From Phytoactinopolyspora limicola (GTDB lineage: Bacteria > Actinomycetota > Actinomycetes > Jiangellales > Jiangellaceae): 64,000 nucleotides of DNA. The notes below the pieces were generated by a model. The model saw only the letters and a program-made list of their open reading frames with translations. It had not been told where the DNA came from and did no database searches. Shown here piece by piece: positions 18,758 through 49,092 of this stretch. Position 1 is the stretch's first letter. Every line of letters begins with the position of its first letter. The DNA lies in assembly GCF_011320225.1 (NCBI RefSeq), contig NZ_JAAOEN010000002.1, forward strand, positions 434,584 to 498,583. Direction: 5' to 3'. Both the position numbers and the translations under genes were made by a program.

Positions 18758-18842
18758 GACGGCGGCCACGGCGGCATGAGGCATCGACGTGTGCAGTCCC
18801 ACCTGGGGCAGCGAGACCGGTCAGGCCCGTAGACTCGACACC

Positions 18843-20869: not shown

Positions 20870-20892
20870 CACAAAACACCTTCCGAATAGGG

Positions 20893-21663: not shown

Positions 21664-21676
21664 GATTGCCTCCTCG

Positions 21677-22966
21677 TCAGTGATAGAGCAGCGCCTTGTC
21701 CCATTCCTCGTCGGCGCCGAACAGGCTGCGTGGCTTGACGACGTCATGGACCGCGGTGAGCGTCGCACGCGGCACCAGGGACCCCGCAGGCAACGCAGTG
21801 ACCTCGCAGTACACGCCGTACGCCTCGTGGATCGCCGATGTCAGCGCATTGCGTGCCTCGTCATGGCGCCCGCACGGGACCTCGATCTGCACGCGTAGAA
21901 CGTCAGGAGACGTCTTCGCCCTCCAGAACATGACCTCAAGATCGGCAGGGAGCCCGAACACCAACTCCTCCAGCCGGTACTGGGTAATCCGCGCTCCCTG
22001 GACGGGGTAGCCGAACGCGGCGCGTCCAAACACCCGGATCCTCGGGAGACCCCAGCCGCAGTCGCACGGGGCATAGGAGACCTCGACGTCGTCCTCCAGG
22101 TTGTAGCGCAGCAGCGGCATCGCCTCCCGGTACAGCGGGGTGACGACGAGCTGGCCGCGGCCCTCCGGCATGATCTCTGCACTGGCTGGATCGCGCACCT
22201 CGAAGATCGCGCGGTCGGCCCAGAGGTGCAGATGGCCCTGGTCGCACTCGCCGGCGAGGCTGCCGGTCTCGGTGGAGCCGTACTCTTCGACGACGGGGAC
22301 TCCCCAGATCTCCTCGATCCGTCTACGCCGGGGCAAGCTCAGCGGCTCACCTCCGACGAACAAAGCACGCAGGGCCGGGAACTCCCGGTATCCGGCCTCC
22401 CTGGCCGCAGCCGCCCATAGCAGTGTTTCGGTCGGCATCGACCAGGTCAGCGTCACTCCCAGATCATGCAGGACCCGAACCACCCTCGAATACGGCATCG
22501 CCAGCGACCGGTTATCACCCGGAACCACCGCCGCACCCTGCAATCGGGCGGCGGCCTGTGCCAGATGCCCGGTGATCATGAGAGCGTACGGCGTGCGCAC
22601 CAGGAAGGTGTCGTCGGGCGTGATCGGGATCCGTTTGCGGGCGTAGCGTTCGGCAAGGTCGGTCCAGTCGGCCTCGGTGTAGAAAGACGGCGTAGGTTGC
22701 CCAGCCGTCCCGCTCGACTCGTGGTAAGTGGCGACCCGGTCCATTCCGCAGGCGAGCATGCCGAACGGATAGCTGTCGCGCAGATCACGTTTGGTGGTAC
22801 ACGCAAGCGCGTTGAGGTCAGCACGCGTCCGCCCGACCGTAGGGATTCGGTCGGCGTAAAACGGCGAAGCAGCCGCGCGTTCAAGGACATGTGACAACCG
22901 CTCGTCCTGGAGCGCAGCGAGCTCAACGTACCCCTTCCAGTCACCGATCTGCGGCAGGTCAGTCAT
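21677..22966 (-). CDS. PaaK-type aryl-acid adenylating ligase
   Basis: A 429-residue member of the adenylate-forming superfamily, closest to phenylacetate-CoA ligases. Core motifs are the P-loop-like YHESSGTAGQPTPSFYT, FVGGEPLSLPRRR, EEYGSTETGSLAGECDQG and the LLRYNLEDDVE hinge region. Length and motif order match PaaK rather than NRPS adenylation domains, and no carrier protein is in the cluster. Predicted to activate an aminohydroxybenzoate as adenylate or CoA thioester so a second aminophenol can be acylated. The ATG at 22966 follows GGAGGTG and overlaps the amidohydrolase stop by 8 bp, so the two are coupled. Confidence 0.87.
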   Translation of the reverse strand: MTDLPQIGDWKGYVELAALQDERLSHVLERAAASPFYADRIPTVGRTRADLNALACTTKRDLRDSYPFGMLACGMDRVATYHESSGTAGQPTPSFYTEADWTDLAERYARKRIPITPDDTFLVRTPYALMITGHLAQAAARLQGAAVVPGDNRSLAMPYSRVVRVLHDLGVTLTWSMPTETLLWAAAAREAGYREFPALRALFVGGEPLSLPRRRRIEEIWGVPVVEEYGSTETGSLAGECDQGHLHLWADRAIFEVRDPASAEIMPEGRGQLVVTPLYREAMPLLRYNLEDDVEVSYAPCDCGWGLPRIRVFGRAAFGYPVQGARITQYRLEELVFGLPADLEVMFWRAKTSPDVLRVQIEVPCGRHDEARNALTSAIHEAYGVYCEVTALPAGSLVPRATLTAVHDVVKPRSLFGADEEWDKALLYH

Positions 22967-23714
22967 CGGTAACACCTCCGATGGAGAGCAGTGGGGCACC
23001 GTTGGTCCACGAGATCAGGCGCCATTGCTCTAGGCTGATATCGAGTGCGCGGTACTTGGCGAGTTCGACACCGGGGTCCTGTCCCGGGTACTCGGTCCCG
23101 AAGAGCAAGCGTTCGGCGCCAAGACGCTCCAGCGCAACGCGGACGACAGCCAGGTAACAGCCCGACGTCTCGGCGAAGACATTTCCGAGATCGGCGACGT
23201 CCTTGATCGCACCAAAGTCGATGCCGATGAAGCCGCAGTGCCCCAGCACGAACCGCACGGCAGGGAACTTCGACGCCAGGAAGGCCAGGTCACGCGAACC
23301 GCAGCCCGCACGGCCGAGGCTGACGATGTAGACCGCGTGCCCCACCGACTCGGCAACCTCGACGAGGGCGATCGTGCGTTCATCAGTGAGCGGAACACCG
23401 TGTACAGCCGGTGAGATCTCGACGCCGCAGAAGTCCGGCCCCCACGCGTGGTACTCGGACGGATCGCGGTGCGGGTTTGCAAAATACCGCGGCAGCAGGC
23501 GTCCGCCGGAGGCCGTGCAGGTGGCGAGCACCGCCTCGTTGTCAGCGTCGGATTCGATGTGACCGCCCCAGATGATCTGATCGGACAGGCGATACGGATC
23601 GATCACTCCTCCGGCGCTGACCACCGCCCGATCGATGCCGTGATAATCCATAGCGGCAAGCAGCCCGTCCATACCTCCGGGGTGCAGCCGTGCATGAAAG
23701 TCGAGGACCGGCAT
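22959..23714 (-). CDS. Amidohydrolase-superfamily protein, possible benzoxazole cyclase
   Basis: A 251-residue amidohydrolase-2-type TIM barrel. Amidohydrolases of this kind close the oxazole ring in benzoxazole pathways such as nataxazole and, as I recall, closoxazole. The first metal motif is DFHARLHP, so the second His of a DxHxH is Arg here, with a His two residues on. FVLGHCGFIG keeps the barrel His, and the final motif is FGTEYPGQDP, with Glu where Asp is usual. Metal binding may therefore be altered. The ATG at 23714 follows AGGTGA; a GTG at 23723 overlapping the aldolase stop is the alternative. It sits between the aldolase and the ligase in one operon. Confidence 0.8.
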   Translation of the reverse strand: MPVLDFHARLHPGGMDGLLAAMDYHGIDRAVVSAGGVIDPYRLSDQIIWGGHIESDADNEAVLATCTASGGRLLPRYFANPHRDPSEYHAWGPDFCGVEISPAVHGVPLTDERTIALVEVAESVGHAVYIVSLGRAGCGSRDLAFLASKFPAVRFVLGHCGFIGIDFGAIKDVADLGNVFAETSGCYLAVVRVALERLGAERLLFGTEYPGQDPGVELAKYRALDISLEQWRLISWTNGAPLLSIGGVTDD

Positions 23715-23719
23715 CGCGC

Positions 23720-24538
23720 TCACCTGGTACCGTTCTCGAACCCGGCCGCGTTCACGAACCGCACCTCATCAGCATGGACCCGCTGGGCGATCCGTCTCGC
23801 CATCAACCCCGGACTCGGCGCCTGAAAGACGTTACGGCCCATCGCTAGGCCCGCAGTTCCCGCCTGTAACGTCTCATCCACATAGTCCAGGATCGCGTCG
23901 GCATCGGCCTGTCGCGGGCCGCCTGCGACAACCACCGGTATGGGAACGGCGTCGACAATATCGCGCATGACATCCGGCGATCCTGCGTAGACGGTCTTAA
24001 CGATGTCCGCGCCAAGGTCCGCAGCAACCGTCGCAGCGTGAGCGATCAGATCCGGATTCCGCGGATTCTCGATCTTCGGCCCTCGGGGATACACCATCGC
24101 GAGCAGCGGGACGTTCCACCGATCACAGGCCCCGGCGACAGTCCCCACGTCGGCGATCTGTCGCGCCTCGTCCATGGACCCGATGTTGAGGTGCACGCTC
24201 ACCGCGTCGGCGCCCATGCGCAGCGCCTCCTCCACGCTGGCGACGAGGCGTTTGGCGTCCGGATCCGGGGCACACGCTGTGCTGGCGCTCAGGTGCATGA
24301 TGAACGACGTTTCGGCGAAATGGGCATCGTTCACTTGTCGGGCACTGCCCTTGTGGAGAACAACCGCGTCAACGCCGTTGCCGGCGAGCCGACCCACAAG
24401 ATCATCGAGGCTGCAGCCGCCAGTGATCGGACCATCGGTGATCGAGTGGTCTAGTGGCACGATGAAGATCCTGCCGCTAACCCGATGGAATAGCCGTCGC
24501 GTCCGGACCCCCTTGGCGAACGTAAGGTTGGCGACCAT
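23720..24538 (-). CDS. DhnA-type class I aldolase (ADH synthase/GriI-like)
   Basis: A 272-residue TIM-barrel aldolase of the group containing archaeal 2-amino-3,7-dideoxy-heptulosonate synthase and GriI. GriI condenses aspartate 4-semialdehyde with dihydroxyacetone phosphate to the C7 precursor of 3-amino-4-hydroxybenzoate. Visible features are FIVPLDHSITDGP with the active-site Asp, VVLHKGSAR, PLLAMVYPRGPKIENP with the proton-donating Tyr, the Schiff-base Lys in GADIVKTVY, and the phosphate-binding AGGPRQ and AMGRNVFQ. The ATG at 24538 has GAGAGGA upstream. The aspartate kinase lies immediately upstream in the operon and the partner DHQ synthase II at 41.1 kb. Confidence 0.9.
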   Translation of the reverse strand: MVANLTFAKGVRTRRLFHRVSGRIFIVPLDHSITDGPITGGCSLDDLVGRLAGNGVDAVVLHKGSARQVNDAHFAETSFIMHLSASTACAPDPDAKRLVASVEEALRMGADAVSVHLNIGSMDEARQIADVGTVAGACDRWNVPLLAMVYPRGPKIENPRNPDLIAHAATVAADLGADIVKTVYAGSPDVMRDIVDAVPIPVVVAGGPRQADADAILDYVDETLQAGTAGLAMGRNVFQAPSPGLMARRIAQRVHADEVRFVNAAGFENGTR

Positions 24539-24596
24539 TGAACATTCCTCTCTTGTTCGGCTGGCCTGCGGTGACACTGACCAGTGAGCGGACCGG

Positions 24597-25871
24597 TCAG
24601 ACCGGCAGACTCGACGGTTGCCCGGTCCCGACCTCAGTGAGTTCGAACTCCCGGTGCAACGCCTCCACGGCGTCGACCACGCGGTCGCCAGGCACCGTGA
24701 CCGACAGCCGCGATTGTGATGTCGAGGTCCGGCCCACCGAAATACCCTTCGCCGCCAGCACGGAGATCAGTCGTGACATGTGTCCTGGCCGGGTGAGCAA
24801 GCCAACGCCGATCAGCGACACCTTGGCCATGTCCCCCTGGATCGTGACGCTCAGTTCGGGCGCTCCGTCCGACATAGCTCGGGCGAAGCTCTCGGCGTGC
24901 TCCCGGCTCGTGGTGAAGCCGAGACGGGGCTCCCCGGCGCATCCGGTCGAGCAATGGGTTACCTGATCGACTGGGATCGACCGTTGCGCAAGGACTGTGA
25001 GTACCTTCTCCGTCGGATCCTTACGGTCCTTGCCGGGCCGTACAACAACACCCGCGACGTCGGTCTCATGGGTGACCGCCATGACAGTGGTGTCCGTCTC
25101 CATCATGATGCTCTCTTCCTCCCCGACATCAGTGATCACTGTTCCGAGCTCTTGTGCCCGCGAGCTCCCCAGATGGATCTCCACACCTCGCAGAGCAGCA
25201 AGTTCGGCGGCTCGGGTGTGCAGAACCTTGGCGCCAGCAAAGGCCATTTCGGCCATAAGCGCCGTGTCCACGACCGGCAGCACACCGGCCGCGCGCACCA
25301 ACCGCGGGTCGGCCGTGCAGACACCACCGACATCCGTAAAGATGGCGCAATGGCGCGCGCGTAATGCCGCGGCGAGAGCCACCGCCGTCGTGTCGGAACC
25401 GCCACGGCCGAGCGTGACGACGTCGCCCTCATCGTTGATCCCCTGGAATCCGGCGACGACCACGACCTCGCCGGCGTCCAGATGCCGGTAGATACGGCCG
25501 GTGTCAATCCCGGTAATCGTCCCGGCTCCTTGACGACCGGCGACGGTGATCCCGCACTGGCCTCCAGTGAGAGAGACGGACGGGACACCGAGCCGGCCCA
25601 GCGCAAGAGCCATCTGGGCGGCAGCAGCGGTCTCGCCCGTCGCCATCAGCTGGTCCGCCTCGCGCCGGGCGCGGACTGTCGCGACCCCCGCCCCACAAAT
25701 CTCCTCGGCCAGCCGGATCAGCTGGTCGGTCGCGTCACCTCTCGCCGACACAACGACAGCCATACGCTTTCCCGAATGGTGGCTGCGGGCGACGCATTCG
25801 GCCGCCTGGAGCACCTGGTCGAGCGTCAGAAGTGAACTTCCGCCGTACTTCTGAACCAGAACGTCACCCAT
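24597..25871 (-). CDS. Aspartate kinase
   Basis: Phosphorylates aspartate, the first step towards aspartate semialdehyde. The 424-residue protein has the kinase domain start VQKYGGSSLLT, the GRGGSDTTAVALA substrate loop and FTDVGGVCTADPR, then two C-terminal ACT domains (about residues 260-410) including GDMAKVSLIGVGL. Normal length; no aspartate semialdehyde dehydrogenase accompanies it, so a housekeeping copy must supply that step. A dedicated kinase at the head of the operon with the GriI-like aldolase argues for boosted precursor supply, possibly with altered lysine/threonine feedback. The ATG at 25871 is preferred over an upstream TTG; AGGAGG lies 12 nt before it. Confidence 0.92.
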   Translation of the reverse strand: MGDVLVQKYGGSSLLTLDQVLQAAECVARSHHSGKRMAVVVSARGDATDQLIRLAEEICGAGVATVRARREADQLMATGETAAAAQMALALGRLGVPSVSLTGGQCGITVAGRQGAGTITGIDTGRIYRHLDAGEVVVVAGFQGINDEGDVVTLGRGGSDTTAVALAAALRARHCAIFTDVGGVCTADPRLVRAAGVLPVVDTALMAEMAFAGAKVLHTRAAELAALRGVEIHLGSSRAQELGTVITDVGEEESIMMETDTTVMAVTHETDVAGVVVRPGKDRKDPTEKVLTVLAQRSIPVDQVTHCSTGCAGEPRLGFTTSREHAESFARAMSDGAPELSVTIQGDMAKVSLIGVGLLTRPGHMSRLISVLAAKGISVGRTSTSQSRLSVTVPGDRVVDAVEALHREFELTEVGTGQPSSLPV

Positions 25872-25985: not shown

Positions 25986-26045
25986 CCTCCAATGACGCGC
26001 GAGATGGATGCTGCTGGCGAACGCGTGACGCTTAAGGAGGTTGTC

Positions 26046-26903
26046 GTGTTCAAACAACGAAGGGCCGAGAATGTCGCTTCCGGGGCCTGGACGCGACGGC
26101 TCCGCGACGGCGGCAAGAAGGCGGTGCAGCAACCGGTGTTTCGACCACGCAGTGCCGCTGCGCCGGAGGCAGTTCCAAGACCGCTCGGCCCGTATGCCCC
26201 GCCCGGAAGGCTATCGCTACTTCCAGGTGATCCGACACCGCGGCGACGGCTGAGTTTTCTCGCCGTCAACGCTTGCACAGTCTCCAGTCTGCTGATGGGA
26301 GGGGCGGCGATCCTGCTGGTCACCCGAGGCGAACCGCACTGGTCGGCGGTGTTCCTCCTCGCCTGCATCGTCATGGATGGACTCGACGGCGGGCTCGCCC
26401 GCCGCTTCGGCGTCACTAGCCCGTTCGGTGCTCAAATGGACTCGCTCGCCGATCTGTGCGCCTTCGGGGTGGCAACTCCACTACTCGCCTACTACTGGCT
26501 GGAGACGACCACCCCCACGGTCGCGGTCGCCCTGATGTCCGCCTTGCTGGCAGCGTGCGCGATGGTCCGCCTCGCCCGGTTCAACGCCATGCCCAAGAAC
26601 GGTCGCTACTTCAGCGGTCTCCCGGCGGCAATGCCGACGGGAATCGTCGCCGGAGGCATCCTCCTGGACCTCCGCCCAGGCGTTCCCTACATCGTCTTCG
26701 CCGTCATGCTGTCAATCCTGATGGTCACGACCCTGCCATACGCTAAGTTCGGCCGGCTGACCGCACTGCCGTGGTGGGTCTGGCCCGCAGGTGTGGCCGT
26801 CGCATTCATCAACCCGGCCACGGCATTCGGTCTCGCTATCGCAGGCTACCTGCTCTCCGGGCCCGCCCTGTGGCTCAGGTTGAGGGACGAGGGCACACCG
26901 TGA
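26046..26903 (+). CDS. pssA: CDP-alcohol phosphatidyltransferase, PssA-like
   Basis: Integral membrane enzyme predicted to join CDP-diacylglycerol and serine to phosphatidylserine. The exact CDP-alcohol phosphotransferase signature DGx2ARx8Gx3Dx3D is present, beginning DGGLAR and ending DSLAD. About six hydrophobic segments follow the family pattern, and the MVRLARFN and FSGLPAAMPTG segments are typical of PssA. The roughly 60-residue basic, Arg/Pro-rich N-terminal extension is unusual. The GTG at 26046 is chosen for the AAGGAGG 6 nt upstream. It is first in a rightward operon; its stop overlaps the monooxygenase start (GTGA). With Psd at 32.8 kb it could make phosphatidylethanolamine inside this cluster. 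Confidence 0.9.
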   Translation: MFKQRRAENVASGAWTRRLRDGGKKAVQQPVFRPRSAAAPEAVPRPLGPYAPPGRLSLLPGDPTPRRRLSFLAVNACTVSSLLMGGAAILLVTRGEPHWSAVFLLACIVMDGLDGGLARRFGVTSPFGAQMDSLADLCAFGVATPLLAYYWLETTTPTVAVALMSALLAACAMVRLARFNAMPKNGRYFSGLPAAMPTGIVAGGILLDLRPGVPYIVFAVMLSILMVTTLPYAKFGRLTALPWWVWPAGVAVAFINPATAFGLAIAGYLLSGPALWLRLRDEGTP

Positions 26904-28396
26904 CGCACGTACATGTGGCGATCATCGGTGCGGGATTCTCCGGCCTGTGCATGGCGATCCGGCTCCGTGATCACGGCATGGAGGACTTCATCGTCCTCGA
27001 ACGCGCCGGAGACATCGGCGGCGCATGGCATGACAACACCTACCCCGGTTGCGCCTGTGACGTCCCATCAGCACTCTATTCCTTCTCCTTCGCCCCCAGG
27101 CCACACTGGACCAGCACGTTCCCGACCCAACGCGAGGTCGCGGACTACCTGCACCGTTGCGCCGACACCTACGGGGTCCGGCCCCACCTGCGGCTCCGTC
27201 ATGAGGTGCTCTTCGCGAAGTGGCGGGAGGAAGAGGCCTATTGGGAGATCACGACAGCACGTGAAACCTACACGGCGAACGTTCTCATCGCGGCAACGGG
27301 ACCACTCAGCGAGCCGGCTTCCCCTTCCATCCCGGGCCTCGAACGGTTCGCCGGGGACGTCTTCCACTCAGCCGCCTGGGATCACACGCTCAACCTCGCC
27401 GACCGCCGGGTGGCGGTCATCGGCACCGGCGCCTCCGCCACCCAGTTCATTCCCGAGATCCAGCCAATCGTCAGCCGGCTATACGTGTTTCAGCGCACCC
27501 CGCCTTGGGTGATGCCACGGCTTGACCGGCGTAGGGCCGACTGGGAACGCCGACTTTACCGCCGCTTTCCCGTGCTACAACGCGTGGTCCGCACCACCAT
27601 CTTCTGGGCGCGCGAGTCGCTGGTCGCCGGCCTCACGGTCAATCGGCGGCTCCTCAAACCAGCAGAGTGGCTCGCCCGTCTCCACCTGCACAGCCAGGTC
27701 CGTGACCCGGGCCTGCGGGCTGCCCTGACTCCCGACTACACGATCGGATGTAAACGGCTCATCCTCTCCAACCGCTATCTCCCAGCGATCACCCAGGCCA
27801 ACACCGAGCTGGTCACCGACGCGATCTGGGCGGTGACCCCGGACGGAATCGTCACCGAAGACGGTGCTCACCGCCTCATCAACGTCATTATTCACGCTAC
27901 CGGCTTCGAGGCGGCCCACATGCCGATCGCGCACCGCCTGCACGGACGCACGAGTAGCCTTGCTGAACGATGGAATGGCAGCGCCGAGGCCTACCTTGGC
28001 ACGGCCGTCGCTGGGTTTCCCAACCTCTTCCTGCTCCTAGGCCCGAACACCGTCTCCGGCCAGAACTCCTCGTTGCTCACGATGGAAGCTCAGGTTAACT
28101 ACGTAGTCGACGCGCTCAGGTTCATGAGCCGATTCCGGGTGGCAACGCTGGATGTGCGCCGCGACACGCAGTCTTCATTCGTCGCCGATGTTCAGGCGCG
28201 CATGAAAGGTACGGTTTGGCTCTCGGGCTGTCACAGCTGGTACCTCGACGAACGGGGTCGTAACACTACTCTCTGGCCGGGATTAACCGGGACATTCCGG
28301 CGGCGGGTACGGCGCTTCGACCCCGGCGACTATCTGCTGCGCCTCGCCCCGCACGACGCCGACGGTGCAGACTTAACCGGCAAGGACTTGATATGA
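26900..28396 (+). CDS. Baeyer-Villiger-type flavin monooxygenase
   Basis: A 498-residue NADPH- and FAD-dependent class B monooxygenase. The N-terminal Rossmann motif is IIGAGFSGLCMAIRL, followed by NTYPGCACDVPSALYSFSF, the Baeyer-Villiger fingerprint FAGDVFHSAAWD, and the second Rossmann motif VIGTGASATQFIPEI. YLGTAVAGFPNLFLLLGPN near the C terminus is also typical. Oxygen insertion into a ketone, or hydroxylation of an N or S atom, is possible; the substrate is not evident. The GTG at 26900 overlaps the pssA stop, so translation is coupled. The longer upstream frame lies within pssA and is not used. Confidence 0.9.
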   Translation: MTHVHVAIIGAGFSGLCMAIRLRDHGMEDFIVLERAGDIGGAWHDNTYPGCACDVPSALYSFSFAPRPHWTSTFPTQREVADYLHRCADTYGVRPHLRLRHEVLFAKWREEEAYWEITTARETYTANVLIAATGPLSEPASPSIPGLERFAGDVFHSAAWDHTLNLADRRVAVIGTGASATQFIPEIQPIVSRLYVFQRTPPWVMPRLDRRRADWERRLYRRFPVLQRVVRTTIFWARESLVAGLTVNRRLLKPAEWLARLHLHSQVRDPGLRAALTPDYTIGCKRLILSNRYLPAITQANTELVTDAIWAVTPDGIVTEDGAHRLINVIIHATGFEAAHMPIAHRLHGRTSSLAERWNGSAEAYLGTAVAGFPNLFLLLGPNTVSGQNSSLLTMEAQVNYVVDALRFMSRFRVATLDVRRDTQSSFVADVQARMKGTVWLSGCHSWYLDERGRNTTLWPGLTGTFRRRVRRFDPGDYLLRLAPHDADGADLTGKDLI

Positions 28397-28409
28397 GCCA
28401 GGAGGATCC

Positions 28410-28787
28410 ATGGCAACGGTGAGCGTGCGCTACATCGTCGACAACGTCGACGCCGCGGTCAACTTCTACACCGGGCACCTCGGTTTCACCACCGTATTCC
28501 GGCCCGGCAAAGGGTTCGCTATCATCGCCCGCGACCAACTGCGGATGCTGCTCAGCGCCCCACACGGCGCAGGCGGAGCGGCCCAGTCGATGCCGGACGG
28601 GCGCAAGCCCAAACCCGGCGGATGGAACCGCATCCAGATCGAGGTCGACGACCTCGACGCGTTCGTCGCGGCGCTCCGGGAGGCGGGGACGAGCTTCCGC
28701 AACGACATCGTGGACGGGCGCGGTGGCCGGCAGATTCTCCTCGAGGACCCGTCCGGAAACCCGATCGAGCTGTTCGAGCCGAAGTAA
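28410..28787 (+). CDS. VOC/glyoxalase-fold protein
   Basis: A 125-residue vicinal-oxygen-chelate protein with two beta-alpha-beta-beta-beta modules: VRYIVDNVDAAVNFYTGHLGF, then IQIEVDDLDAFVAALREAG ending in ILLEDPSGNPIELFEPK. The terminal Glu of ELFEP is a usual metal ligand. Members include dioxygenases, isomerases and drug-binding resistance proteins, so it could be a tailoring enzyme or bind the product for self-protection. The ATG is 13 bp after the monooxygenase stop with AGGAGG before it, so it belongs to that operon. Confidence 0.87.
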   Translation: MATVSVRYIVDNVDAAVNFYTGHLGFTTVFRPGKGFAIIARDQLRMLLSAPHGAGGAAQSMPDGRKPKPGGWNRIQIEVDDLDAFVAALREAGTSFRNDIVDGRGGRQILLEDPSGNPIELFEPK

Positions 28788-28903
28788 AAGAACTCCCGTA
28801 CGGCTGCGTGCCGCAGCTGCCTACCGACCGCGCTCGGAGATCTTCTCCTGGTTCGATCGCGAACACCCGGGCTTCCGGTTCTCACCCACTTCTCGATCAC
28901 GGC

Positions 28904-29917
28904 CTAGGACTGGGCCACGATCAGCGCCGTCGGCCAAGGCGCAAGCTCCACGATTTCGGTCTCGGTCAACCCGCCGGCCCGGAGCACACCGACCATCTCG
29001 GCCTCGGTGCGTTCCTTACCGCCATGTTGCATGAGCATGATGATGTCGAGGAGCTTGCCCAGGTGCGGCTCGTCGCCGGGCGGGATCAACGTGTCGATCA
29101 CGATAACCTTCGCACCTGGAGCCATTGCCTCGCGGACATTCGCGAGGATGGTGGCGGCATCGTCATCGTCCCAGTCGTGCAAGATCCACGAGAGCACATA
29201 GACATCTCCATTTTCCGGTATCCGTTCGAAGAAGTCGCCGCCCTCTGCTCTCGCCCGCCCGGCAACCCCGGTCTTGTCGAGGGTGGTGGGCACATCGGAA
29301 ACCACCTCTGGCCGGTCGAAGACGACAGCGGTCATCTCCGGGTAGCGCTGGAGAATAGCGGCAGCCAGGTGGCCGTGTCCCCCGCCGACATCAACGAGGA
29401 TCCTCCGGTCCGAGAAGTCGTACGCGCTAGCCACGGCGGCATGAGTCTGTCGGGCGACATCACCCATCGCCGCGTGAAAGAGCGAGGCCCGGCCAGGATT
29501 GGCGGCGAGGTAGGACCACCAGTCGGTGCCGTATGCTCGCTCGAATGAGGGCAAGCCGGTGCGAATGCTATGTTCTAGCCCGGCGAGCGCTTCGTGAGTT
29601 TCCCGGGCACCGGCGAGCCGTGCAACGTTGCGCAACGACTCCGGGACGTCGGCCCGTAGAGTCATGGCGAGCGGTGTGAGCCCGAACGTCGCCGGCGCGA
29701 TCTCCGTGAACACCCCCACGGCCGCGAGCCCGCGCAGGACGCGGTGCAGCGCGACCGGATCTGTCCCCGTCCGTTCAGAGAGCACCGAGACTGGCTTTGG
29801 GCCGTCGGCGAGCAAATCTGCGACTCCCAGATCGGCGGCGGTAGCCAGCTGCTGACTCAGAAAGGCTCCGTAAATCAGCCTCATCATTTCGGTCGGCGCG
29901 TGCTCACGATCACTCAT
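28904..29917 (-). CDS. SAM-dependent O-methyltransferase
   Basis: A class I methyltransferase of the plant-like, dimeric O-methyltransferase family (337 residues from this start). The N-terminal winged-helix dimerisation domain (IYGAFLSQQLATAADLGVADLL, RTGTDPVALHRVLRGLA) is followed by the SAM motif LVDVGGGHGHLAAAIL and the catalytic-base region WILHDWDDDDAATIL. It probably methylates a phenolic hydroxyl or carboxylate of the aromatic product. The ATG at 29917 is preferred for family length; an ATG at 29941 is in frame and abuts a long palindrome. It is divergent from the phosphoesterase gene. Confidence 0.88.
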   Translation of the reverse strand: MSDREHAPTEMMRLIYGAFLSQQLATAADLGVADLLADGPKPVSVLSERTGTDPVALHRVLRGLAAVGVFTEIAPATFGLTPLAMTLRADVPESLRNVARLAGARETHEALAGLEHSIRTGLPSFERAYGTDWWSYLAANPGRASLFHAAMGDVARQTHAAVASAYDFSDRRILVDVGGGHGHLAAAILQRYPEMTAVVFDRPEVVSDVPTTLDKTGVAGRARAEGGDFFERIPENGDVYVLSWILHDWDDDDAATILANVREAMAPGAKVIVIDTLIPPGDEPHLGKLLDIIMLMQHGGKERTEAEMVGVLRAGGLTETEIVELAPWPTALIVAQS

Positions 29918-29941
29918 CCTCAGGATTGTCGCGGTGCCCAT

Positions 29942-29981
29942 CCCGGCAGGGCATCACGTGTTCACGTGATGCCCTGCCGGG
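29942..29981. promoter_or_regulatory. Perfect palindrome in methyltransferase/phosphoesterase promoter
   Basis: Arms of 19 bp (29942-29960 and 29963-29981) flank a 2-nt centre, between divergently transcribed genes, so it is more likely an operator than a terminator. The core CATCACGTGTTCACGTGATG matches the palindrome at 32.0 kb at 17 of 20 positions and resembles the pair at 25.9 kb. It lies 55 bp upstream of the phosphoesterase start. Confidence 0.65.
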
Positions 29982-30035
29982 CAGTAGGGCAGCACACTGC
30001 CGTCAGAGGAGCCTTGGACTCTGGAGGCAGTCAGC

Positions 30036-31310
30036 ATGTTAGGCCCTGTGGCATTCTTCAGCATCATCGTCGTGCTATCGGCCGCGCTGCACTACTACCT
30101 GTGGGCGCGGCTGATCCGTGACACCACGGCCCCCGGACGGTGGCGTCGTGTGGGCACGATTGCCATCGCCGGACTCGGCATCTTCGCCACCGTGACATTC
30201 ATGATCACCCGCACCGTCGCCGTTGATGCCTGGTGGCTGGCGTGGCCCGGGTACACGTGGATCGGCCTGCTTTTCTACCTGCTGATCGTCCTGCTCATCC
30301 TTGAAGTTCCCCGGATGATCCTCGCGTTCCGGTGGCGCAGCCGTAACAGAAAGCGCAGCCGTCCATCGGCATCACTGACCACCAAGGAGAACACGCTGGT
30401 TACCGCGGACGGCCAGGAGGATGCCGACGCCGAGACGCCAGCCGGAGAGTCCGCAAGTTCCGGTCCAGCGTCATTGCTCGACCGGCGGGTCTTTATCGCC
30501 CGCGCGTTCGCGGCGACGGCGGGTATCACCGCCGCTTGCACGGTCGGGTACGGCATGTATACGGCCTTTAGTGATCTGCGAACCGTCCGGGCGACGGTAC
30601 CGCTGCGCGGGCTGCATTCCAGCGCCTCTGGGTTCCGGATCGCTCTCGTCAGCGACACCCATTTCGGCCCGCTTATCCATGAAGAGATGGCAGCGCGGGT
30701 GGTGCGGCACGTCAACCGGCAGCAGGTCGACATGGTAGCGATCGTCGGGGACCTCGTCGATGGCACCATCGACGCGGTCGGCCATAAGATCGACGGACTA
30801 CGGCACCTGAAGTCGCGTCTCGGCACCTACTTCGTGACCGGTAACCACGAGTACTCCTCCGGCGCGGACTCGTGGTTAGAGAGAGTGCGAGAGCTCGGCA
30901 TGACACCACTTCTCAACGACCGGGTGGAGATACCCAGCGGGCGTGCGGCGTTCAATCTGGCCGGCGTCAACGACATCGCCGCTCCCATGTACGACGCGTC
31001 CGGCCCTGATTACGACCAGGCGCTATCCGACCGCGATCCGGCACATCCGGTCGTGCTTCTCGCACATCAGCCGGTACAGGTCTTCGACGCCATCGAACAC
31101 GGCGTCGACTTGCAGCTGTCCGGGCATACACATGGCGGCCAAACAGTGCCTTTCGACCGGATCACTGGACTGCAGCAGCCAGTTGTCTCAGGGCTCGCCT
31201 CGATGAGCGGCACATCCATCTTCGTTACCCGCGGGGCAGGGTTCTTTGGACCACCGGTCCGCGTCGGAGTTCCCCCGGAAATCGCAATCATCGAGTTGCA
31301 AGCCCGCTAG
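30036..31310 (+). CDS. Membrane-bound metallophosphoesterase, YkuE/YaeI-like
   Basis: A 424-residue calcineurin-type phosphoesterase. Four or so transmembrane helices fill the first 110 residues, a charged linker and a further hydrophobic segment (FAATAGITAACTVGYGMY) follow, then the catalytic domain. Metal-binding motifs are complete: VSDTHFG, VGDLVDG, TGNHEYSS, LLAHQP and SGHTHGGQ. YkuE- and YaeI-type enzymes act on lipid-linked or extracellular phosphodiesters, so a phospholipid substrate would fit the neighbouring lipid genes (inference). The ATG at 30036 has a GGAGG upstream. It is transcribed alone, between two divergent methyltransferase genes. Confidence 0.87.
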   Translation: MLGPVAFFSIIVVLSAALHYYLWARLIRDTTAPGRWRRVGTIAIAGLGIFATVTFMITRTVAVDAWWLAWPGYTWIGLLFYLLIVLLILEVPRMILAFRWRSRNRKRSRPSASLTTKENTLVTADGQEDADAETPAGESASSGPASLLDRRVFIARAFAATAGITAACTVGYGMYTAFSDLRTVRATVPLRGLHSSASGFRIALVSDTHFGPLIHEEMAARVVRHVNRQQVDMVAIVGDLVDGTIDAVGHKIDGLRHLKSRLGTYFVTGNHEYSSGADSWLERVRELGMTPLLNDRVEIPSGRAAFNLAGVNDIAAPMYDASGPDYDQALSDRDPAHPVVLLAHQPVQVFDAIEHGVDLQLSGHTHGGQTVPFDRITGLQQPVVSGLASMSGTSIFVTRGAGFFGPPVRVGVPPEIAIIELQAR

Positions 31311-31346
31311 TGTGTCGCACGGGACACTAGTCGCAGGCCACCTGAT

Positions 31347-31934
31347 CTATCTTCGAACCCATCGAGCCGTATAGGCGAAGGCCGGAGGCAGGTTCGCCCA
31401 CACGGTCCGGCCGACGATCACCTCCCCAAAGCTCTCCTCCAGTAGCGCGCGGAATCGCCGGGCGGGCGGAGCCCAGGCCGCGTGAAGGTATGCGAACGTC
31501 ACGAATGTCCCCTCGGCCGTCAGGCTGTCGCAGATGCTACCGAGGATCTCCAGCTGGGTCTGCCTCGGATATGCGGCCCAAGGCAGACCACTCACAATCA
31601 CATCGGCCGCCGCCAGCCCACGGGCGGCCAGCAGGTTGGGTGTTTCCTCGGCGCGGTCGACAGCAACATCAACGTCGGGGAACCGGTCGTGCAACAACGC
31701 GGCGAACCGTTCGTTGACCTCCACAGCTATGTGGTGGCCGCGACCACCAAGCTGTCGCTGGATCTCGGTGGTGAACGCTCCCGTGCCCGGACCGAGCTCA
31801 ACGACGACCGGGGCATTGTGTTCCGCAATAGAACGAGCCATCGGCCGGGCCATGCGCGCCGAACTTGGAGCGACCGCTCCGGTACGGCGCGGATTCCTGA
31901 AAAATTCGGAGATAAAGAGGCCGGTTTCTCTCAT
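31347..31934 (-). CDS. PmtA-like phospholipid N-methyltransferase
   Basis: A 195-residue class I methyltransferase close in layout to rhizobial-type phospholipid N-methyltransferases. It begins LFISEFFRNPRRTGAVAPSS, the amphipathic membrane-association segment of that family. Next come the SAM-binding VVELGPGTGAFTTEI, then VSGLPWAAYP and the C-terminal VWANLPPAFAY. Such enzymes methylate phosphatidylethanolamine towards phosphatidylcholine; the related rRNA dimethylases lack this N terminus. With pssA and psd in the same cluster it would complete a phosphatidylethanolamine-methylation route. The ATG at 31934 has GGGAGAGA upstream. Divergent from the gene at 32.0 kb. Confidence 0.83.
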   Translation of the reverse strand: MRETGLFISEFFRNPRRTGAVAPSSARMARPMARSIAEHNAPVVVELGPGTGAFTTEIQRQLGGRGHHIAVEVNERFAALLHDRFPDVDVAVDRAEETPNLLAARGLAAADVIVSGLPWAAYPRQTQLEILGSICDSLTAEGTFVTFAYLHAAWAPPARRFRALLEESFGEVIVGRTVWANLPPAFAYTARWVRR

Positions 31935-31995
31935 CAGATCTCTCCCGGAGTAATGACTTTGACTTTGTTGTCAGGATGGCGGCCACGCTCACGCC

Positions 31996-32021
31996 ACACA
32001 TCGCGTATTCACGCGATGTGT
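31996..32021. promoter_or_regulatory. Palindrome in PmtA-like/DUF6081 divergent promoter
   Basis: Perfect 11-bp arms (31996-32006 and 32011-32021) with a 4-nt centre. The core CATCGCGTATTCACGCGATG matches the 29.95-kb palindrome at 17 of 20 positions. It is 22 bp upstream of the rightward start codon and 62 bp upstream of the leftward one. Confidence 0.65.
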
Positions 32022-32042
32022 GCTTGCACCGGGCACCAGAGA

Positions 32043-32786
32043 ATGACGGCAATGAAAGAACGCGCCTACGACAGTTTCTTGGAGCGGTCCACTCAATTGG
32101 ACCCCTCCCGCTGGGAGATCGTCCGCATGCGGGACCAGAACGGCACGGTCCACGAGTACCGGGACCGCAACGCCCGGGTTCGTGCCGGTGACGGTCGACT
32201 GAACATCTCGGTGCTGCCGTTCACCCGTTTCCACGACACGGATCCGATGGGCAACAACGCCAAGCTGCTCTGCTTGTCCACCGAGCACTTCAAAGCGCCA
32301 CCCGGCCTCGAGCTCATCTTCGAGGTGGACATGGCGGTCACGACCAACGGTCAGGTTCCCTTCGATCTACTCGACGCCTTCGGTACGGCCAATCTGGTGG
32401 ACTTCGCCACCGGCACGGTCATCAATATGGCCGCCACCAACGACACTGTGTACGCCGTGCATGAGCGGCTCGCTGTGCCCAGGGGCACCGGCGAGAATCA
32501 GTTCACCCACCGAATCGTCCTGGACGTCGCTACCAGGCCGGGGCAACAGCATCGCTACTCCCTGGCATACCGGTCCGACACGGGCGGTTTTACCTGGTTC
32601 GTCGATGGCGAGCCGCACTACTGGGCCGTCGCGCCGGCCCGCCCCACTGGCTTCCAGGTGGGGATGGGTCTCTTCTCCGCCCGCAGCCTGACCCAGTTCA
32701 GCCGGGCCGAACGCGAGCACGGCCAAGGCGCGGCGGGGCAGTGGGGACCTTGGCGGATCAGTCTGCGGGAGTTGTCCTATGGGTGA
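32043..32786 (+). CDS. DUF6081-like beta-rich protein, function unknown
   Basis: A 247-residue soluble protein without signal peptide. It is rich in beta-strands, with FLERSTQLDPSRWEIVRMRD, LNISVLPFTRFHDTDPMGNN, LELIFEVDMAVTTNG, FVDGEPHYWAVAP and GFQVGMGLFSA segments. The pattern, with WFVDG near the end, recalls concanavalin-like sandwiches such as LamG or GH16 domains; from memory it matches a family called DUF6081 in actinobacteria. No catalytic residues can be assigned. It overlaps psd by 8 bp and begins the rightward operon that leads to the ADIC synthase. An ATG at 32052 is an alternative start. Confidence 0.75.
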   Translation: MTAMKERAYDSFLERSTQLDPSRWEIVRMRDQNGTVHEYRDRNARVRAGDGRLNISVLPFTRFHDTDPMGNNAKLLCLSTEHFKAPPGLELIFEVDMAVTTNGQVPFDLLDAFGTANLVDFATGTVINMAATNDTVYAVHERLAVPRGTGENQFTHRIVLDVATRPGQQHRYSLAYRSDTGGFTWFVDGEPHYWAVAPARPTGFQVGMGLFSARSLTQFSRAEREHGQGAAGQWGPWRISLRELSYG

Positions 32787-33441
32787 GGTACGGCTGGCGC
32801 GTGGCACATCACGATGGCTGGCCCCGATGGTCTCGGCCGCCGCTGTCACGATCGGGGTAGCAACGGCGCGCCGGTCGTGGCCATGGACTGCCGCAGCCAC
32901 CTCCATGACCGCGCTGTCGGGGTTGATGCTGTGGTTCTTCCGCGACCCCGATCGCACGCCCGGGGCGGGCTCCATACTTTCCCCCGCCGACGGCGTCGTC
33001 CAAGCGATCGAGCCGTGGCCAGACGGGCGCACCCGAGTATCGATCTTCATGAGCCCGTTTGACGTGCATGTCAACCGGGCTCCCGCTGACGGCGTGATCA
33101 CCTCGGTGCAGCATGTGTCCGGTGGATACCTGCCCGCATTCGAGAAAGATAGCGACCGGAACGAACGCGTAATCTGGCGTTTGGACACCAAGCACGGTGA
33201 TATCGAGTTGGTACAGATCGCCGGTGCTGTGGCGCGGCGGATTGTTCCTTACGTGCCCGAGGGCACACGGGTCGGCCGGGGCGAACGCATCGGGCTGATC
33301 CGGCTCGGTTCCCGAGTCGATGTATATCTACCGGAGAACATGATCCCCGCGGTACGCCTGCGGGAGCGGACTCGCGCCGGGCAGACCGCCCTAAATCACG
33401 AGGACACGCGATGCGCGGATTCGGGTAACGCGCCATCGTGA
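32779..33441 (+). CDS. psd: Phosphatidylserine decarboxylase proenzyme
   Basis: Pyruvoyl-dependent decarboxylation of phosphatidylserine to phosphatidylethanolamine. The 220-residue product is the short, archaeal/actinobacterial type. It has N-terminal hydrophobic segments, then FFRDPDR, SPADGVV, SIFMSPFDVHVNR and the self-cleavage site in RLGSRVDVYLP. Cleavage at Gly-Ser there would leave a C-terminal alpha chain with the pyruvoyl group. The chain runs about 25 residues past VYLPE, slightly long. It overlaps the upstream gene by 8 bp and precedes the PhzE-like gene by 4 bp, so lipid and aromatic genes share an operon. Confidence 0.92.
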   Translation: MGEVRLARGTSRWLAPMVSAAAVTIGVATARRSWPWTAAATSMTALSGLMLWFFRDPDRTPGAGSILSPADGVVQAIEPWPDGRTRVSIFMSPFDVHVNRAPADGVITSVQHVSGGYLPAFEKDSDRNERVIWRLDTKHGDIELVQIAGAVARRIVPYVPEGTRVGRGERIGLIRLGSRVDVYLPENMIPAVRLRERTRAGQTALNHEDTRCADSGNAPS

Positions 33442-33445
33442 ACGC

Positions 33446-35350
33446 ATGAAAAGCTGGCCGGACGAAATTCTGGAGAGAATCCTCGGCGGGAATCCGCCGC
33501 CATTCGCTCTGGTATACCGCCCGGATTCCCCGCTGGGTTCCGCGGCGCTGGAGGTGTTCTCCGGCGATGCGATCCGGGTGAGCCGCCTCGCGGACCTACC
33601 TCTCGGCGGCGCCCAGGGGCCGCGTCTACTGGCGCTGATTCCATACCGCCAGATCACCGAACGCGGGTACGCCTGTCTCGACGATGGCGAACCGATCCGT
33701 GGAATCGTCATACGCGAACACCACAACGCCCCAGCCGAGGCGATTCTGCGGCACATTCCCGAGACTCCGATACACCTCCACTCGGACGGCTTCGACGTCA
33801 GCGACGAGGCCTACGCGCAAATCGTACGGGAGGTCGTCAAGGACGATATCGGCAATGGCGAAGGGTCGAACTTCGTCCTCCGCCGCACCTTCACGGCCAA
33901 CGTCCCCGCCGACGCCGCGGCGACAGCACTCACCGTCTTCCGACGTCTGATGCTCAGCGAAAGCGGCACCTACTGGACGTTCGTCGTGCACACCGGCGAC
34001 AGGACCTTCGTCGGCGCCACCCCCGAGCGGCACGTGACGCTGACGGGCGGCACCGCAGTAATGAATCCGATCAGCGGAACACTGCGGCATGGGACCGAAG
34101 GCCCGGGCCTGCAGGACCTGCTCAGTTTCCTGGCCGACCGCAAGGAAACCGACGAGCTTGACATGGTCGTGGATGAGGAACTCAAGATGATGTCGCGGAT
34201 CTGCGACGCGGCGCCTTCAGTTACTGGTCCGGCTCTGAAAGAGATGGCACGGCTCACCCACACGGAGTACATCATTCAGGGGTGCAGTGCCCTTGACGCG
34301 CGGGAGATCCTCCGCGAGACCATGTTCGCCCCCACGGTCACCGGAAGCCCTCTGGAAAACGCCTGTCGCGTGATCGCGCGCAGGGAACCATCCGGGCGTG
34401 GTTACTACAGTGGCGCGGTCGCACTGATCGGGCGGGATGCCGCAGGACGGCACACGCTGGACTCTTCCATCCTCATCAGGACCGCCGATATCGACGACAC
34501 CGGTCGGCTGCGCATCGGCATTGGCTCCACGCTGGTGCGCCTCTCGGATCCGGCGTCGGAGATCGCGGAGACCCACGCGAAGGCTGCCGGTCTTCTCTCC
34601 GCGCTGACCTCGCCGGCTCCACAGACGGATGAACCTGTACGGCGGCGTGGGCTCGCGCACAGTCCGCAGATCCGAGCGGCGCTCGCCGGGCGCAACACCA
34701 CTCTCAGCGACTTCTGGCTGAACCCGGCGAACGTATGTGACCGCCGCCCGCTGAAACAACGACGCATCCTCATCCTCGACGCCCAGGACGCCTTCACCGC
34801 GATGCTCGCCCAGGTCTTAAGGGCGCAAGGTCCCGAGGTCGCTGTCCACCCCTGCACCCGGCCCGGCCGTCTCAGCGGCTGGGACGTGGTCGTCGGCGGC
34901 CCTGGCCCAGGAGACCCTCGTGACTCATCCGATCCGCGTGTCCGGGCCCTCCGGGACACGATCACCTATCTACTCGACGCCGGCCGACCGTTACTGGCGG
35001 TTTGCCTGTCCCACCAGATCCTCGCCTCATTGCTCGGCCTGGACATCGTCCGCAGGGAGATCCCGAACCAGGGTCTTCAGATGGAGATCGACCTGTTCGG
35101 GCGGTCCGAGTACGCCGGCTTCTACAACACTTTCGCGGCGCGCTGCGACCACGACACCATCGACGCGCGCTCGGGCGAAGCCATCTATGTCAGCCGCGAC
35201 AAGGAGAGCGGCGACGTCCACGCGATGCGCGGTCCCGGATTCGCTTCGGCGCAGTTCCATCCGGAATCTGTGCTCACCCGCAACGGCCCCGCCATCCTCA
35301 GCGACCTCATCGTCTCTCTGCTCAACCCCACCATCCGAGGAGGATCATGA
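33446..35350 (+). CDS. PhzE-like 2-amino-2-desoxyisochorismate synthase
   Basis: Converts chorismate and glutamine to ADIC. The 634-residue protein fuses a chorismate-binding synthase domain (about residues 1-400, with GATPERHVTLTGG, MNPISGTLRHG, KETDELDMVVDEELKMM and GRGYYSGAVALIG) to a glutamine amidotransferase domain (about residues 430-625). The latter has VGGPGPGDPRD, the nucleophile in LAVCLSHQ and QFHPES. Fusion order and the DELDMVVDEELKMM block match PhzE rather than TrpE. It feeds the PhzD-like and DhbA-like enzymes encoded on the other strand at 20-21.7 kb. It follows psd by 4 bp. Confidence 0.93.
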   Translation: MKSWPDEILERILGGNPPPFALVYRPDSPLGSAALEVFSGDAIRVSRLADLPLGGAQGPRLLALIPYRQITERGYACLDDGEPIRGIVIREHHNAPAEAILRHIPETPIHLHSDGFDVSDEAYAQIVREVVKDDIGNGEGSNFVLRRTFTANVPADAAATALTVFRRLMLSESGTYWTFVVHTGDRTFVGATPERHVTLTGGTAVMNPISGTLRHGTEGPGLQDLLSFLADRKETDELDMVVDEELKMMSRICDAAPSVTGPALKEMARLTHTEYIIQGCSALDAREILRETMFAPTVTGSPLENACRVIARREPSGRGYYSGAVALIGRDAAGRHTLDSSILIRTADIDDTGRLRIGIGSTLVRLSDPASEIAETHAKAAGLLSALTSPAPQTDEPVRRRGLAHSPQIRAALAGRNTTLSDFWLNPANVCDRRPLKQRRILILDAQDAFTAMLAQVLRAQGPEVAVHPCTRPGRLSGWDVVVGGPGPGDPRDSSDPRVRALRDTITYLLDAGRPLLAVCLSHQILASLLGLDIVRREIPNQGLQMEIDLFGRSEYAGFYNTFAARCDHDTIDARSGEAIYVSRDKESGDVHAMRGPGFASAQFHPESVLTRNGPAILSDLIVSLLNPTIRGGS

Positions 35351-35688
35351 CCACTCCAGTGGGCCCTCAGAAGACGAGGACGACGACCTATCTCACGATT
35401 CAGAGCAGCGACGCCTTTATCCAGCTGCGCCGGCGAGCTAGACGCCTCATCGCCGCGCTGTTCACGGTCTTCGTCGGCTGGTTCCTCGCCACGATATTGC
35501 TCGCGGGCTGGGCTCCGGACCTGTTCGCTCTTGAGGTGGCGGGCAACGTCAACGTCGGACTCCTATTCGTCGTCGGCCAGATCCTCTCGACGCTCCTGAT
35601 CACCGCGTTCTACCTGCGGTACGCCCGCCGCTGGCTTGACCCCCTCGCCGAACGAGTCCGCGACGAGTTCGAAAGGAGCAACCGATGA
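35347..35688 (+). CDS. DUF485 membrane protein, symporter partner
   Basis: A 113-residue DUF485/YjcH-like protein with two transmembrane helices (LIAALFTVFVGWFLATILLA and VGLLFVVGQILSTLLITAFY) and charged ends. It is encoded directly before an ActP-like symporter, as in acetate permease loci. The ATG at 35347 follows AGGAGG and overlaps the upstream stop by 4 bp. The downstream gene overlaps it by ATGA. Confidence 0.88.
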   Translation: MTTPVGPQKTRTTTYLTIQSSDAFIQLRRRARRLIAALFTVFVGWFLATILLAGWAPDLFALEVAGNVNVGLLFVVGQILSTLLITAFYLRYARRWLDPLAERVRDEFERSNR

Positions 35689-37238
35689 GTGCCGGGGTAC
35701 TTTCCATGATCTTCCTTGCGATCATTCTAGTCTTCGTCGCGCGGATCGGCCGCGGGAAGAACACCCCGTCCGACTACTACGTCGCCAATCGGGCGTTCAC
35801 CGGCCCGCAGAACGGACTCGCGCTCTTCGGCACGTATCTGTTGATGACGTCGTTTCTCGCGCTCAGCGGTGACGTCGCGCTCAATGGATACGACGCGGTC
35901 CTCTTCGGCGTCAGCTTCATTATCGCCTGGCTCGTGGCGCTGGTGCTCATTGCCGAACCGCTGCGCAATACGGGACGATTCACCTTGGGCGACGCTCTTA
36001 GTATCCGAATGCAAGAACGGCCCGTCCGCATGGCCGCGGCGACGGTCACGCTGATCGTCTTCTTTCTCTACATGACGATCCAGCTCACCGGTGCCGCCGC
36101 GATCGTGACACTGCTGCTGGGAGTTGCCTCGCCGCTCGCGGAGGCGATGGTCATCCTCCTCATCGGCACCGCCACCACAGTGATCGTGTTCTATGGCGGG
36201 ATGCGCGGCACCACCTGGACGCAGATACTCAAGGCGGGACTGCTGTTCGTCGGTGTCGTCGCACTCGGCGGGGCGCTGCTGCTGCACTATCGCTTCGACA
36301 TCTCTACGCTTCTTGGTGACGCAGCGAGCGGCGCCGGGTCGCAGAGCGCGGCGCTGCTCACCCCCGGCGGGAAGTTCGGCGCGGACACCACGGACAAGCT
36401 TCAGTTCGTCTCCCAGATGCTCACCGTGATCCTCGGGCACGCCGCCCTGCCATACCTTTTCATCCGATTCCTCACGACGCCCTCGGCACGCGAAACCCGC
36501 CGGTCGGTCTCGTGGGCAATCTGGCTGATAGTGCCGTTCTACGTGCTCGTCATGCTGATCGGCTTCGGTGCCGCTGCGCTCGTCGGCGCAGAGACAATCC
36601 AGTCCTCTCCTGGCGGGCGCCTTTCCGCCGCACCGCTGCTCGCCGAGGAGCTCGGCGGCGTGGCCTTGCTCGCTTTCATCGCCTCCGTCGTCTTCATCAC
36701 GATCATCGCGGTGACCGCAGGCCTCGCGATCTCCGCCGCGGCCACGTTCACTCACGACATCTACCGCAACATCGCTCGGCACACTCCCTCGGAGGGCCAG
36801 GAGGTCCACACGGCCCGCATCACAGTCGTGGTTCTCTGCGTCCTCATGACCGTCGTCGGACTGCTGCTGATGCGGCAGAACCTGCATTTCATGCTCGCGC
36901 TCAACGTGACGCTCGTCGCGTCCTCGATCCTGCCGACTATGGTCTACTCCTGGTTCTGGCGCCGCTTCAACACCTCCGGGGTGCTGTGGACCATGTACGG
37001 CGGCCTCATCACCACGGTAGTGCTGGTCGCGTTCTCGCCGGCAGTCTCCGGTGCTCCGCAGTCCATGCTTCCCGACGTCGACTTCGCGATCTTCCCGTGG
37101 TCGTACGTAGGCCTCGTGTCGATCCCGCTCGGCTTCCTCTACGGCTGGCTCGGCTCCAAGCTCAGCCGGGAGCGCGACGACGCCGCCTACGCCGAGATGG
37201 AGATCCGCTCCCTATCCGGCGCCGGAGCTGACAAATGA
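35685..37238 (+). CDS. Sodium/solute symporter, ActP-like
   Basis: A 517-residue member of the solute:sodium symporter family with about 13 transmembrane segments. The early segment RGKNTPSDYYVANRAFTGPQ is the family signature region after TM1, and TAGLAISAAATFTHDIYRN matches the conserved TM8-9 stretch. Together with DUF485 it resembles acetate/propionate permeases. Inside a biosynthetic operon it may take up a carboxylate precursor or move an aromatic acid; which is not evident. ATGA overlaps join it to both neighbours. Confidence 0.9.
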   Translation: MSAGVLSMIFLAIILVFVARIGRGKNTPSDYYVANRAFTGPQNGLALFGTYLLMTSFLALSGDVALNGYDAVLFGVSFIIAWLVALVLIAEPLRNTGRFTLGDALSIRMQERPVRMAAATVTLIVFFLYMTIQLTGAAAIVTLLLGVASPLAEAMVILLIGTATTVIVFYGGMRGTTWTQILKAGLLFVGVVALGGALLLHYRFDISTLLGDAASGAGSQSAALLTPGGKFGADTTDKLQFVSQMLTVILGHAALPYLFIRFLTTPSARETRRSVSWAIWLIVPFYVLVMLIGFGAAALVGAETIQSSPGGRLSAAPLLAEELGGVALLAFIASVVFITIIAVTAGLAISAAATFTHDIYRNIARHTPSEGQEVHTARITVVVLCVLMTVVGLLLMRQNLHFMLALNVTLVASSILPTMVYSWFWRRFNTSGVLWTMYGGLITTVVLVAFSPAVSGAPQSMLPDVDFAIFPWSYVGLVSIPLGFLYGWLGSKLSRERDDAAYAEMEIRSLSGAGADK

Positions 37239-39962: not shown

Positions 39963-40004
39963 CGTTCATGGCTCTTCGGCATCGTGGCCGAAGAGCCATG
40001 AACG
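39963..40004. terminator. Bidirectional hairpin terminator
   Basis: Perfect 18-bp arms (39963-39980 and 39987-40004) with a 6-nt loop, between convergent genes. It includes the stop codon and last dozen codons of the minus-strand monooxygenase. Confidence 0.7.
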
Positions 40005-48884: not shown

Positions 48885-49092
48885 AGCACTATCATGGCAA
48901 CTTCATCCAACCCGTCCACATCGCCACGTGTAATGTTCATGCACGCTACCTCGGCACAAGTGCCAGCACTGGAGCTCGCAGTGGAGTTTGCTACAGAGCC
49001 TCGGTGTGCCGGCCGGGAGTGAGCCGGCTCGATGGCGGGAGACATTCGACAGGCTTCGATGGCTCATCGGCGCGACGGTAACCTGGGGTGTT

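Follow-up and report, generated by a model that had tools for sequence, protein, structure and literature searches.

Membrane lipids are usually regarded as a fixed trait of the host, and biosynthetic islands as carriers of genes for precursors, tailoring, transport, and resistance; what, then, are genes for phosphatidylserine (PS) synthase (pssA) and phosphatidylserine decarboxylase (psd) doing inside an aromatic biosynthetic cluster of the actinomycete Phytoactinopolyspora limicola? The cluster spans 20.2 to 48.9 kb of the window, i.e., the whole 64,000-nucleotide stretch analyzed (assembly GCF_011320225.1, contig NZ_JAAOEN010000002.1, positions 434,584 to 498,583), and both lipid genes lie within it (Table 1), as the original prediction from this stretch had proposed. 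The cluster is of the aminohydroxybenzoate type, with genes for 3-amino-4-hydroxybenzoate (3,4-AHBA) and 3-hydroxyanthranilate (3-HAA). The answer developed here, to which we assign about an even chance of being correct, is that the island holding the cluster carries a portable module for phosphatidylethanolamine (PE), which entered a PE-lacking host together with the aromatic pathway.

The identity of both lipid enzymes was assessed from family models, motifs, and solved structures. The product of pssA, for which an alternative start is possible upstream at 25899, matched PF01066 (E = 3e-16), and its top-scoring NCBIfam model was TIGR00473 (98.5 bits; cut-off, 107). It carries the complete CDP-alcohol phosphatidyltransferase signature DGGLARRFGVTSPFGAQMDSLAD (motif tested, DG(x)2AR(x)8G(x)3D(x)3D), and the closest solved structures are PS synthases (7pow/7b1k). 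The psd product matched PF02666 (1.2e-42, 146 bits vs. 22) and exceeded the cut-off of NF003683 (264.3 bits vs. 244); the FFRDP, DVHVNR, and GSR motifs are all present, the last at residues 177–179 and invariant in 11 aligned PSDs. The G-S bond of this self-cleavage site gives rise to the pyruvoyl group. Family-invariant residues are thus kept in both proteins, which together should make PE.

The two genes belong to separate operons 5.9 kb apart. pssA is the first gene of a set comprising pssA, a flavin monooxygenase (FMO) gene, and a glyoxalase-fold gene, and shares a GTGA overlap with the FMO gene. psd lies in the order DUF6081-psd-phzE-DUF485-SSF-FAD hydroxylase; its first 8 nt overlap the DUF6081 gene, its end precedes the phzE-like gene by the 4 bp originally noted, and the phzE, DUF485, SSF, and FAD hydroxylase genes overlap one another. 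psd is therefore embedded in tightly packed cluster genes and locked into the phzE operon. As proposed, pssA and psd belong to the cluster, each being in one of its operons, but the four lipid-type genes (pssA, psd, and those for the phosphoesterase and the methyltransferase) do not constitute one operon, the methyltransferase being encoded on the opposite strand.

Housekeeping copies had been expected elsewhere in the genome; however, the host assembly (6.59 Mb, 99.45% complete) contains exactly one psd and five CDP-alcohol transferase genes, only one of which is PssA-type. The other four were considered as hidden pssA genes and rejected, since their best models were pgsA (104 bits, slightly under the cut-off of 109), ClsA and phosphatidylinositol (PI)-phosphate synthase (both exceeding their cut-offs), and an inositol-type model. 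An unassigned CDP-alcohol transferase at another site of the genome (L006, positions 1315–2130) is archaetidylinositol-type, scores far below cut-offs, and is followed by a cytidylyltransferase-like open reading frame (ORF).

Gene-order comparison revealed that deoC and the aldehyde dehydrogenase gene, which flank the ∼29-kb segment in P. limicola, are immediate neighbors in all four congeners, leaving an empty site; the segment is thus considered an island on which pssA and psd arrived. The G+C content at third codon positions is 0.77 in the island and 0.82 in its flanks, and the values for pssA (0.76) and psd (0.74) match those of the island. Among 21 other genomes of the family (six genera; probably Jiangellaceae, the only family of the order in the collection), none contained psd, and none contained a homolog of the island PssA at E ≤ 1e-10. 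The phospholipids reported for Jiangella gansuensis are phosphatidylinositol mannosides, PI, and diphosphatidylglycerol, without PE (PMC5292007). From its gene content, the host lineage has no psd and hence presumably no PE.

To place the cluster among its relatives, loci sharing all or much of its core were collected. In total, seven such sister loci were obtained, all from Streptomycetaceae (G340, G445, G675, G518, G716, G749, and G456), along with a more divergent eighth. Their ligases are mostly 56–67% identical to that of the island, and their AHBA synthases 61–64%. In the sister clusters, genes of the 3-HAA and 3,4-AHBA routes occur together with those for a ligase of the NatL2 type and a short amidohydrolase (PF04909); glyoxalase, symporter, SDR, and DUF6081 genes are further shared by two of the seven. 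Within ∼20 kb of the sister clusters, even at E ≤ 0.01, there were no homologs of pssA or psd, nor of the genes for the phosphoesterase, the FMO, the O-methyltransferase (OMT), or the PmtA-like methyltransferase; in G518, the aspartokinase gene and the PhzE gene stand side by side in divergent orientation, exactly where the island has its 26–33 kb block. In Streptacidiphilus sp. 4-A2 (G456), psd is accompanied by a pssA-like gene at 8.57 Mb, 3.1 Mb from the cluster at 5.42 Mb; therefore, at least one psd-bearing host has the aromatic core with no lipid genes in the cluster. No sister cluster bearing pssA or psd was found in 395 genomes of the class, 396 genomes of Streptomycetaceae, or plasmids; the same negative result from 35 genomes of family f18 shows little, as that search had no positive control.

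Relatives of the island PSD were sought among about 85,000 species genomes, and the closest 80 psd loci (GTDB genomes) were inspected. Their PSDs are 60–69% identical to that of the island, the closest being from Streptosporangiaceae (up to 69%) and Streptomyces, and in a tree the island PSD grouped with this Streptosporangiaceae/Streptomyces clade, apart from the outgroup PSDs. None of the 80 loci is surrounded by diagnostic aromatic-cluster genes, and pssA, where detected, is directly downstream of psd. The island PssA shares only ∼30% identity with the PssA proteins encoded there, whereas it is 46–47% identical to PssA of another family (G111, G203), the PSD of which is just 37–40% like the island PSD. 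Different nearest lineages, together with placement in two operons, suggest that both steps were recruited rather than hitchhiking as a housekeeping pair; alternatively, an unsampled donor carrying both the PSD and PssA types is possible. The open literature, in which most subscription journals were not covered, yielded no precedent for psd or pss in natural-product clusters.

The following scenario would account for these observations. An aromatic core with relatives in Streptomycetaceae would have moved into a lineage without psd and presumably without PE, and would have acquired a pssA and a psd of its own to meet a requirement of the pathway for PE. PssA would convert CDP-diacylglycerol and serine to PS, which PSD would decarboxylate to PE, and production would be tied to the pathway by the apparent translational coupling of psd to the DUF6081 gene and its position ahead of phzE, the putative committed gene. 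PE could then form the membrane surroundings of the pathway's membrane proteins and product or protect these, or serve as the amine or ethanolamine acceptor of an activated aryl acid. A narrower version, in which the pathway cannot do without PE or ethanolamine as substrate or cofactor lipid and the independently assembled module on a mobile island lets a pathway from PE-making actinomycetes run in a PE-lacking lineage, possibly yielding an aryl-PE or aryl-ethanolamide, is offered more tentatively. The portable-module reading is built on the identity of the two genes and their intact catalytic residues, their occurrence as sole copies in the genome, a family otherwise devoid of psd, island insertion, gene overlaps, and sister clusters free of the lipid genes. 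Several points weigh against it: the PssA score falls slightly under the curated cut-off; the absence of PE from congeners is judged from missing genes and from a single species in a related genus; the sister clusters were viewed over ∼20 kb per side, with PE synthesis genes confirmed in one sister host; the cluster with a PE module is known from one example; and PE formation, its coupling to cluster activity, and its purpose are inferred from sequence.

Two further genes of the block bear on what PE might be for. The metallophosphoesterase was proposed to be a membrane enzyme acting on lipid phosphodiesters; it has four hydrophobic segments and the full set of calcineurin-type motifs, but its scores against the nearest curated families are far below cut-off (YaeI, 92 bits vs. 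188; LpxG, 73 vs. 350). Residues 149–170 comprise DRRVFI followed by a hydrophobic segment ahead of the catalytic domain and are Tat-signal-like; the catalytic domain may face outward. The methyltransferase scored 91 bits against the OlsG model NF041658 (cut-off, 350) and 61 bits against the PmtA model NF045881 (cut-off, 250), and matched PDB 9ko3 weakly. Of the predicted conversion to PE and its methylated forms, the first part is thus what PssA and PSD should yield, but the methylation step would depend on a protein with weak PmtA/OlsG resemblance.

PE might instead be a product-specific substrate, with ligase-activated aminohydroxybenzoate or its dimer joined to the PE amine, the phosphoesterase freeing an aryl-ethanolamide or its phosphate, much as N-acylethanolamines are released from N-acyl-PE, and the PmtA-like enzyme methylating lipid or product. 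The phosphoesterase and methyltransferase genes share a block and are both missing from sister clusters, no phosphoesterase homolog was found in the four congeners at E ≤ 1e-15, and the ligase type forms aryl esters and shunt amides; however, the NatL2 type is known for joining two aryl acids, neither a further ligase nor an N-acyltransferase for PE was recognized, and the poor fit of the phosphoesterase to lipid-acting families counts against it as well, so we consider this possible but doubtful. That PE, perhaps methylated, remodels the membrane as self-protection from the cluster's own product, regardless of any host deficit, is improbable: nothing points to a product acting on membranes and the sister clusters manage without extra lipid genes, although an MFS gene and a symporter gene are placed in the same cluster and the methyltransferase has its distant OlsG/PmtA likeness.

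Chance has also to be considered. As a single instance in an island acquired as a block, pssA and psd could have come with cluster-adjacent DNA and stand outside the pathway, but hitchhiking would be expected to bring a pair like the housekeeping loci, where pssA, if detected, sits directly beside psd, and not two intact genes with nearest relatives in different lineages, each overlapping or 4 bp from genes of a different cluster operon; it is distinctly improbable. The original prediction had held that, were these the genome's only copies, they would be housekeeping genes in this position by accident. No other copies exist, yet that rule would have pointed to the wrong conclusion, since neither psd nor a PssA homolog is present in any of the 21 relatives and both genes lie in the insertion missing from all four congeners; ordinary housekeeping genes located here by chance are extremely unlikely. 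The island appears to import the enzymes that define a major phospholipid into a lineage lacking it. If the portable-module reading is true, a natural-product pathway depends on a specific host lipid, which is relevant to heterologous expression in hosts with and without PE, and congeners with and without the genes would offer a natural system for probing PE function.

Table 1. Features of the island and its flanks (window coordinates; scores in bits unless given as E-values).
Feature	Coordinates	Strand	Evidence and remarks
deoC	18789–19793		left flank of island
Island, ∼29 kb	19800–48985	.	contains whole cluster; between deoC and aldehyde dehydrogenase gene; ends approximate
Isochorismatase/PhzD-like	20213–20920	-	PF00857
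DhbA-type dehydrogenase	20893–21666	-	TIGR04316, 346 vs. cut-off 300
PaaK-like ligase, NatL2/AjiA1 type	21677–22966	-	PDB 6wuq (AjiA1), 545; 6siw (nataxazole ligase), 541
Short amidohydrolase	22959–23723	-	PF04909; not a NatAM homolog
BagB/FevI-like aldolase	23720–24541	-	NF041223, 375 (cut-off 500); NF005556, 314 vs. 241
Aspartokinase	24597–25871	-	TIGR00657, above cut-off
pssA, CDP-diacylglycerol-serine O-phosphatidyltransferase	25986–26903	+	PF01066; TIGR00473; full CDP-AP motif
Baeyer-Villiger-type FMO	26900–28396	+	relatives are phenylacetone/steroid monooxygenases; no counterpart in sister loci
Glyoxalase-fold protein	28410–28787	+	PF00903; common to two sister clusters
OMT	28904–29917	-	PF00891, 2e-48; no counterpart in sister loci
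Membrane metallophosphoesterase	30036–31310	+	PF00149, 4e-15; all calcineurin-type motifs; four hydrophobic segments
Class I S-adenosylmethionine methyltransferase, distantly like OlsG/PmtA	31347–31934	-	NF041658; NF045881
DUF6081 protein, NcnN/ActVA-3 family	32052–32786	+	PF19559, 1.5e-42, 146 vs. 25.9; found in two sister clusters
psd, phosphatidylserine decarboxylase	32779–33441	+	PF02666; NF003683; GSR self-cleavage site
PhzE-like chorismate-utilizing amidotransferase	33446–35350	+	PF00425 and PF00117
DUF485, sodium/solute symporter (SSF), FAD aromatic hydroxylase	35347–38830	+	overlapping; 3′ of phzE
3-Hydroxybenzoate-6-monooxygenase-like protein	39966–41108	-	
BagC/FevH-like 3,4-AHBA synthase	41105–42202	-	NF002625, 544 vs. 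375; BagC/FevH model, 519 vs. 750; PF01959
Aldehyde dehydrogenase	48988–50553		Pfam match; right flank of island

The aldolase, AHBA synthase, and aspartokinase genes indicate a supply of 3,4-AHBA, and the PhzE-, PhzD-, and DhbA-like set indicates a 3-HAA route, to which enzymes of these types belong. The likely product predicted from these genes is a benzoxazole or an aryl ester or amide. Downstream of the FAD hydroxylase are genes for DoxX and SDR proteins, then the 3-hydroxybenzoate-6-monooxygenase-like protein, the 3,4-AHBA synthase, regulators, and an MFS transporter. A literature search for the combination of 3-HAA and 3,4-AHBA turned up only the closoxazole paper, and a core joining both routes may represent an undescribed product class.

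Compared with known systems, the island resembles the nataxazole, A33853, and microechmycin benzoxazole clusters in its NatL2-type ligase (540 bits) and 3-HAA gene set, but adds the 3,4-AHBA genes and pssA/psd, lacks a NatAM-type amidohydrolase, and has no recognized polyketide synthase (PKS) gene. In the portions of the reports available to us, clusters of that type are described with a NatL2/BomJ ligase, a NatAM/BomN amidohydrolase, and 3-HAA genes, pssA and psd going unmentioned (PMC9864271, PMC7204872), and NatL2 is reported to produce an aryl ester, which NatAM then cyclizes to the benzoxazole (PMC7204872). The closoxazole clusters (clx, pfx) share the two-enzyme 3,4-AHBA supply and an AMP ligase, and their amidohydrolase likewise departs from the NatAM type, being only 18% similar to NatAM (PMC12118335); they differ in having two ligases, and neither 3-HAA nor lipid genes are described there. 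The bagremycin and ferroverdin clusters (bag, fev) provide the nearest named models for the aldolase (BagB/FevI), AHBA synthase (BagC/FevH), and ligase (BagE/FevW, 569 vs. 800), with all three island proteins scoring under the curated cut-offs; unlike these clusters, the island has an additional chorismate branch and the lipid genes. Actinobacterial housekeeping psd-pssA loci have the same PSD family and the same two-step PE route, whereas in the island pssA and psd are divided between two operons of the cluster, and the PssA comes from a different lineage.

The DUF6081 protein belongs to the family of NcnN and ActVA-3: NcnN, the best match of which is named DUF6081, is homologous to ActVA-3 and required for naphthocyclinone dimerization, and the family is proposed to comprise cofactor-independent oxidases (PMC10697411). 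An oxidation step is plausible for the island protein. The amidohydrolase starts with DFHARL rather than the usual DxHxH metal motif, a feature conserved across all core clusters that may reflect an altered active site. It did not align to the NatAM-type amidohydrolase (730 bits vs. 6sj0) of a nataxazole/AJI9561-like cluster from another actinobacterial family (G154, L132 and L133), which also encodes an iterative PKS, a NatL2-type ligase, and 3-HAA enzymes. Additionally, two of the Streptomycetaceae clusters contain ORFs that resemble, by eye, a vanadium-type haloperoxidase and an RND/MmpL-type transporter.

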